Assembly: GCA_001821295.1 (NCBI GenBank)
Contig: MHSK01000028.1
Span: forward strand, 224 to 36,919
Origin: Candidatus Taylorbacteria bacterium RIFCSPLOWO2_12_FULL_43_20
Lineage (GTDB): Bacteria > Patescibacteriota > Minisyncoccia > Phycocordibacterales > HO2-43-120
Length of the DNA: 36,696 bases
Direction: 5' to 3'
Shown here: piece by piece, positions 31,048-31,262 of the stretch
Layout of the letters: the number at the start of each line of letters is the position of its first letter
Position numbering within the stretch: position 1 is the stretch's first letter
Notes under the pieces: generated by a model
Database searches by the model: none
The model's input: only the letters and a program-made list of their open reading frames with translations
Told to the model about the DNA's origin: nothing
Translations under genes and position numbers: made by a program

Positions 31048-31262
31048 TTTAGTCTGGTGATTTAACGCAGTGGACACACCTCTTCCCATTCCGAACAGAG
31101 AAGTTAAGCACTGTAGTGGCGATGGTACCTCGCCTAAATTTTTTGAGTACGAGCAGAGAATCTTGAGCTAGTTGTTGCGCAGTTAGTGCTTCAAAGAGTC
31201 TCGTGTATTTTATGTAATTCGAAAAATTTAGGCGGGGGAGAGTAGCTAGTCGCCAGGCTAAA
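31048..31262 (+). rRNA. rrf: 5S ribosomal RNA with a large helix IV insertion
   Basis: Ends TTTAGTCTGGTGA and TCGCCAGGCTAAA pair as helix I. Conserved 5S words CACACCTCTTCCCATTCCGA ACAGAGAAGTTAAGC and GGCGATGGTA, then GGGAGAGTAG, are present. Length is about 215 against about 115-120. Helix IV continues as a 19-bp duplex (CCTCGCCTAAATTTTTTGA, 31128-31146, with 31219-31237) topped by about 72 bases that fold further (ACGAG/CTCGT). No intron core is seen, and the inserted part does not match the repeat families of this window. It may remain in the RNA or be cut out by RNase III. Confidence 0.9.

Follow-up and report, generated by a model that had tools for sequence, protein, structure and literature searches.

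The 36,696-nt stretch of Candidatus Taylorbacteria bacterium RIFCSPLOWO2_12_FULL_43_20 analysed here (contig MHSK01000028.1; hereafter the window) carries a single-copy 5S rRNA gene. Its core is intact, but an insert of about 100 nt has turned loop D and helix IV into a stem of 21 bp that closes a folded stretch. As far as the assembly goes, the genome has no 5S besides this expanded gene. Since it is the sole 5S and its conserved core motifs are intact, the gene must work.

The gene occupies positions 31052..31259 of the plus strand (ca. 208 nt, boundaries from the pairing of helix I) and begins approximately 165 nt downstream of the end of the 23S rRNA gene. Its 5' half (31053..31127, plus strand) comprises the helix I 5' strand, helices II and III, loop C (CCCAUUCCGAAC) and the loop E 5' strand, and is textbook 5S up to the terminating GAUGGUA (31121-31127). 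With our 5'-half model R1 it scores 96.4 bits, the highest value among all genomes scored with R1, the window sequence being one of the 23 training rows of that model. The core picks up again at 31239 with AGAGUAG, the loop E 3' strand, followed by helix V and the helix I 3' strand (31239..31259, plus strand). In the minimum free energy (MFE) structure of 31030-31280 (z -6.5) the flanks GGUUCACU and AGUGAACU are predicted to prolong helix I around the entire gene (31038..31271, plus strand); this precursor stem resembles that of a normal 5S precursor and is followed by a T run. The MFE structure of the whole 5S retains the core helices, with a fold z of -5.2, and none of 200 shuffles folded equally well. 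A terminator-like match within the gene (31118-31134) was at chance level and was rejected.

Helix IV, usually 3-8 bp, here runs to 21 uninterrupted pairs (G-U counted) between 31128..31148 and 31217..31237 of the plus strand, and closes a further folded stretch of 68 nt. The earlier note had described a 19-bp extension plus 72 nt; the repeat finder returned exactly this, with 19-nt arms at 31128-31146 and 31219-31237 and 72 nt between them. Counted past a helix IV of E. coli length (8 bp), the insert is 94 nt long (31136..31229, plus strand) and replaces loop D. The gap between GAUGGUA and AGAGUAG is 111 nt, versus 11-19 nt in the unexpanded 5S RNAs of the same order. The one other genome of the genus (G001) has a normal 108-nt 5S with the helix IV CCUUUUAUUAGG, giving a net gain of about 98-100 nt and bearing out the view that the molecule is nearly doubled by an insert on helix IV. 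By itself the insert folds with a z of -5.0 (0/300 shuffles as good). It had been reported not to match repeat families elsewhere in the window, which we confirm and extend to the whole genome, where a second copy was not found; derivation from a genomic repeat was accordingly ruled out. The gene has the marks of an expanded 5S, that is, a recognisable core with an insert of at least 13 nt, extensive internal pairing and an intact core fold, and also that of an intervening sequence (IVS), namely a helix-tip insert at loop D with a long stem (21 uninterrupted pairs) suitable for RNase III.

The genome measures 1.008 Mb in 38 contigs (completeness 100, contamination 0.3). The earlier note had named a second, normal 5S gene as the observation that would overturn its reading; the whole genome gave one match to Rfam RF00001 and one to the 5'-half-only model, which is indifferent to helix IV, and no such gene was found. 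The RF00001 match (31053-31180) stops within the insert, and automatic annotation therefore gets this 5S wrong. A survey of CPR rRNA insertion sequences, which concerns the same bacterial group with its insert-rich rRNA genes, recorded no insert of at least 100 bp among 645 5S genes (PMC11270868); it relied on RF00001 matches, which for the window gene end inside the insert.

Helix II differs between the two genomes of the genus by compensating changes. We infer that the element arrived in the window species after the split from this relative, or was lost in the relative. A search for relatives with ribosomal protein uL10 against the genome contigs gave no match. Across the order, 252 of 297 genomes had a 5S match and 45 had none; genomes with long, poor or missing matches were examined further, chiefly by means of the 5'-half model. 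Helix IV inserts were found in 5 of the approximately 252 5S-bearing genomes (ca. 2%), with motif gaps of 46, 58, 80, 111 (the window) and 148 nt. Gaps of 26-56 nt occurred in one of 397 genomes, and because intermediates are so few the inserts look like a discrete class rather than the extreme of a continuous distribution.

When 84,980 species were scanned for the motif pattern with gaps of 55-115 nt, 48 stretches were obtained and read individually. Eight loci in seven genomes are single-stem helix IV inserts: two Spirochaetales, one Bacteroidia, one Moraniibacteriota, Parcubacteria M10-OD1-1, Parcubacteria CG11_39_22 and a Taylorbacteria, the last two being identical in sequence to, and hence equated with, genomes G180 and G082 of the order survey. 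One Spirochaetales assembly has two rRNA operons, in both of which the 5S carries a helix IV insert (78 and 77 nt, slightly diverged; L070, L100). Nearly all remaining stretches are tandem or partial 5S duplications, and those of the Halomonas group, Bacillus, Neobacillus, Photobacterium, Pedobacter, Prevotellaceae and others were set aside as such. Sporosarcina L078 and Deltaproteobacteria L109 were left out because of a damaged 5' half, and L086 was dismissed as not being a credible 5S. In the Halomonadaceae (L069, L073, L079, L087 and further loci of the Halomonas group) the loop E motif of a normal 5S is followed, about 100 nt on, by another 5S-like 3' half, AGAGUAGCGGAGCGCCGCC. Truncated 5S copies also lie downstream of the expanded 5S in G082 (L134) and G080 (L035/L136), much as in the Peptococcaceae (PMC7812874), and the G082 remnant holds the 3' half of the same insert as the expanded 5S of that genome.

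The search among related 5S genes that had been proposed thus yielded helix IV inserts within the order as well as in other phyla. Ten distinct inserts are known to us overall. All sit at the same spot of the 5S and always have a long basal stem, with varying lengths and unrelated middles, and each folds better than all of its 300 shuffles (z -4.5 to -10). Their distribution is sporadic over three phyla (Patescibacteria, Spirochaetales, Bacteroidia). This recurrence bears on the idea that the window gene is non-functional or an artefact: it could be a pseudogene, a chimera or the product of a collapsed assembly, and the true 5S could be absent from the contigs. The assembly is in 38 pieces, 5S genes do drop out of assemblies, as the 45 genomes of the order without one indicate, and truncated copies accompany expanded ones in related genomes. 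Yet the gene is intact here in both core halves, in loop E, in helix I and in the precursor stem, it follows the 23S end by about 165 nt, inserts at the same spot occur in independent assemblies and in two operons of a single Spirochaetales assembly, and the insert forms a strong stem unlike random sequence. We consider a non-functional gene or an artefact very unlikely.

The best view of how such a stem evolves comes from G180 and G078, two species of one genus, in which a basal stem of 12 bp is kept (CCCAGCACUUUC versus CCCGGCGCUUUG). Three of its pairs have been exchanged as a whole, two from A-U to G-C and one from C-G to G-C, and no position has changed in one arm alone; pairing at the base of the stem has therefore been kept while the rest drifts. 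Beyond the basal stem the two inserts differ, and the lengths are 58 and 148 nt. The stem of the window resembles that of Parcubacteria M10-OD1-1 (GCCYAAAUUUUUU; p 0.0005, the lowest value possible with 2000 shuffles, in a comparison of 45 pairs). Five inserts drawn from the Patescibacteria, the Bacteroidia and the Spirochaetales begin with AGCAY following CCU or CCC. These short shared sequences at the base may reflect common origin or convergence, the former being a weakly tested lead.

Expanded 5S RNAs as a kind, and helix IV as a site, are already known. Stepanov and Fox in 2021 described expanded 5S rRNAs of bacteria and archaea in 51 strains of the Clostridiales, Halanaerobiales, Thermoanaerobacterales, Alteromonadales and Halobacteriales, including a 69-nt helix IV insert in Desulfitobacterium dichloroeliminans (PMC7812874). 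The earlier note is incomplete in this respect: bacterial examples, one of them on helix IV, were catalogued before, and the feature is found repeatedly within the order and in further phyla. The window gene shares with that set (PMC7812874) a large self-folding insert in an otherwise normal core, helix IV among the sites and a sporadic distribution; unlike it, our cases come from the CPR, Spirochaetales and Bacteroidia, none of which is represented there, and the helix-IV-expanded gene of the window is the only 5S of its genome. Stepanov and Fox suggested that the D. dichloroeliminans helix IV 5S might not enter ribosomes, or that the insert might be excised, and treated sole-5S status as the condition settling function (PMC7812874). 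Their question stayed open because D. dichloroeliminans is listed among the genomes whose 5S genes differ in their inserts (PMC7812874), whereas the window genome has no other 5S. In the open-licence literature searched, outside which a report may exist, we found no earlier CPR case, no helix IV insert in the only 5S of a genome and no account of recurrence in three phyla.

The earlier note had also compared the gene with that of the archaeon Halococcus morrhuae. An enlarged 5S does exist there, with an insert of 108 nt that likewise nearly doubles the molecule and belongs to the only 5S type of the cell (PMC7812874, PMC7530397). The parallel ends at the site and the host: the Halococcus insert lies beside loop E, points outward and is retained in the ribosome, while that of the window is on helix IV of a bacterium of the Patescibacteria type. 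An expansion of the Halococcus kind, between loop E and the three-way junction, was therefore rejected for the window, where the insert sits at the far end of helix IV.

The Halococcus case nevertheless raises the prospect that the insert is kept as an expansion segment, the mature 5S measuring about 208 nt and its long helix IV extending from, or bending within, the large subunit, neutrally or with an added contact. Halococcus provides the only proven large prokaryotic 5S insert, and its retention (PMC7812874, PMC7530397), although at another site, counts against excision; in addition the whole window molecule folds with its core intact and compensating changes keep the basal stems. On the other side, loop D, which caps helix IV, points into the subunit towards H39, H42 and H89 and packs close to H89, to the loop of H39 and to the base of H42 (PMC3614586, PMC7283268). 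Stepanov and Fox regard large inserts there as sterically disfavoured and question whether that of D. dichloroeliminans could be accommodated (PMC7812874). These steric arguments derive from E. coli ribosomes, not those of the CPR, and the shorter normal helix IV of the order (gap 11-19 nt) would leave some room, so that the pocket may offer more space than that of E. coli. A rebuilt pocket is argued against by 23S helices H39-H44, which have equal length and nearly equal sequence in the window genome, its unexpanded same-genus relative and three other expanded genomes; thus there is no sign in H39-H44 of a docking site altered to make room. Protein bL25, which binds the helix IV arm in E. coli, is also encoded in the genome, and the middles of the inserts differ between species and are not conserved. 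Retention is in our estimation a substantial possibility, but one to be held with distinctly less than even confidence.

The remainder of the operon is relevant to the fate of the insert. The 23S rRNA gene (24847..30885, plus strand; ca. 6.0 kb) contains many inserts, and its 3' end was read from the sequence: Rfam ends the gene at 29936, while the true end lies near 30885 (ACGUUGAUAGGCUUCAGGUGUACGC...). Standard models bound such insert-rich rRNA genes badly. H25 and H45, the classical IVS sites of 23S, both carry inserts (E. coli about 530-623 and 1160). A 126-nt element is present at four places in the 23S (24995-25120, 25219-25344, 27170-27295 and 27463-27588), the other copies being 98%, 69% and 86% identical to the first; by the Rfam alignment at least the first two lie in hairpin loops, and it looks like a short mobile palindromic element multiplied inside rRNA. 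Rfam also reports a group I intron match (27848-28110, plus strand), and a LAGLIDADG-like ORF (28365-28856, plus strand) was recognised by eye. Two further copies of the intron-core motif GGAUGAAGAUAUAGUC lie downstream of that match at 29723-29750 and 30389-30416, which suggests three group I introns in the 23S.

With at least one group I intron match in the operon, processing of rRNA inserts probably occurs in this organism, and the 5S insert might in principle be spliced, that is, precisely removed with religation to give a normal-sized 5S. Against this, the 5S insert matches no catalytic group I or group II intron core and no other credible Rfam family at E up to 10, it is too short for a known intron, and the expanded helix would require exact cutting. 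We regard splicing as very unlikely.

A closer parallel is provided by the IVSs of 23S rRNA, where RNase III cuts without religation, as described for Coxiella helix 45 (PMC4990558) and as is probable at 23IS2 and 23IS4 of CPR 23S (PMC11270868). The window insert is similarly a short, stem-forming insert at a helix tip; its rRNA gene is single-copy, the genome is small, and the operon has inserts at the classical 23S helices. It is unlike them in residing in 5S, not 23S or 16S, in its lack of an IVS protein ORF, and in that its excision is our own proposal. We favour over retention, at roughly even confidence, the reading that the 5S insert is IVS-like and removed by RNase III, leaving a two-piece 5S. 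The insert would be transcribed as part of the precursor, RNase III would cut the long stem, with or without trimming, and the middle would be discarded. The ribosome would then use a 5S of two pieces, about 80-90 and 30-40 nt long, which helix I, loop E and the helix IV stub would keep together.

The earlier note was right to raise RNase III-like cleavage as a point to check. RNase III is encoded in the genome (PF14622 match in a 235-aa open frame). To our knowledge the enzyme is present in nearly every bacterium, and its presence is for this reason a weak, non-discriminating point. An E. coli strain whose 5S chains are opened at loop D and tethered to the 23S (construct DH42) is viable (PMC7283268), and continuity at loop D is thus not essential, with the limit that the opened ends in DH42 are tethered, not free as in the two-piece 5S proposed here. 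A report of a two-piece 5S was not found in the literature searched. The wider proposition, that several unrelated bacteria have a naturally split 5S, with loop D inserts forming a recurrent class of 5S IVS whose helix IV is cut by RNase III, we put forward tentatively, at a little below an even chance.

5S rRNA is among the most size-constant of RNAs, and the tip at loop D is packed against 23S beside the peptidyl transferase and GTPase centres. Because RF00001-based annotation hides them, the rarity of genes such as this one has been underestimated, and their recurrence in three phyla offers several natural replicates. A single-copy 5S with a long loop D insert leaves two options, a ribosome whose interior is altered or a 5S working in two pieces, neither of which has been described for this site in a cell without a normal 5S. 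The organism studied here probably either cuts the piece out, and so lives with a two-part 5S, or builds an unusually accommodating ribosome.
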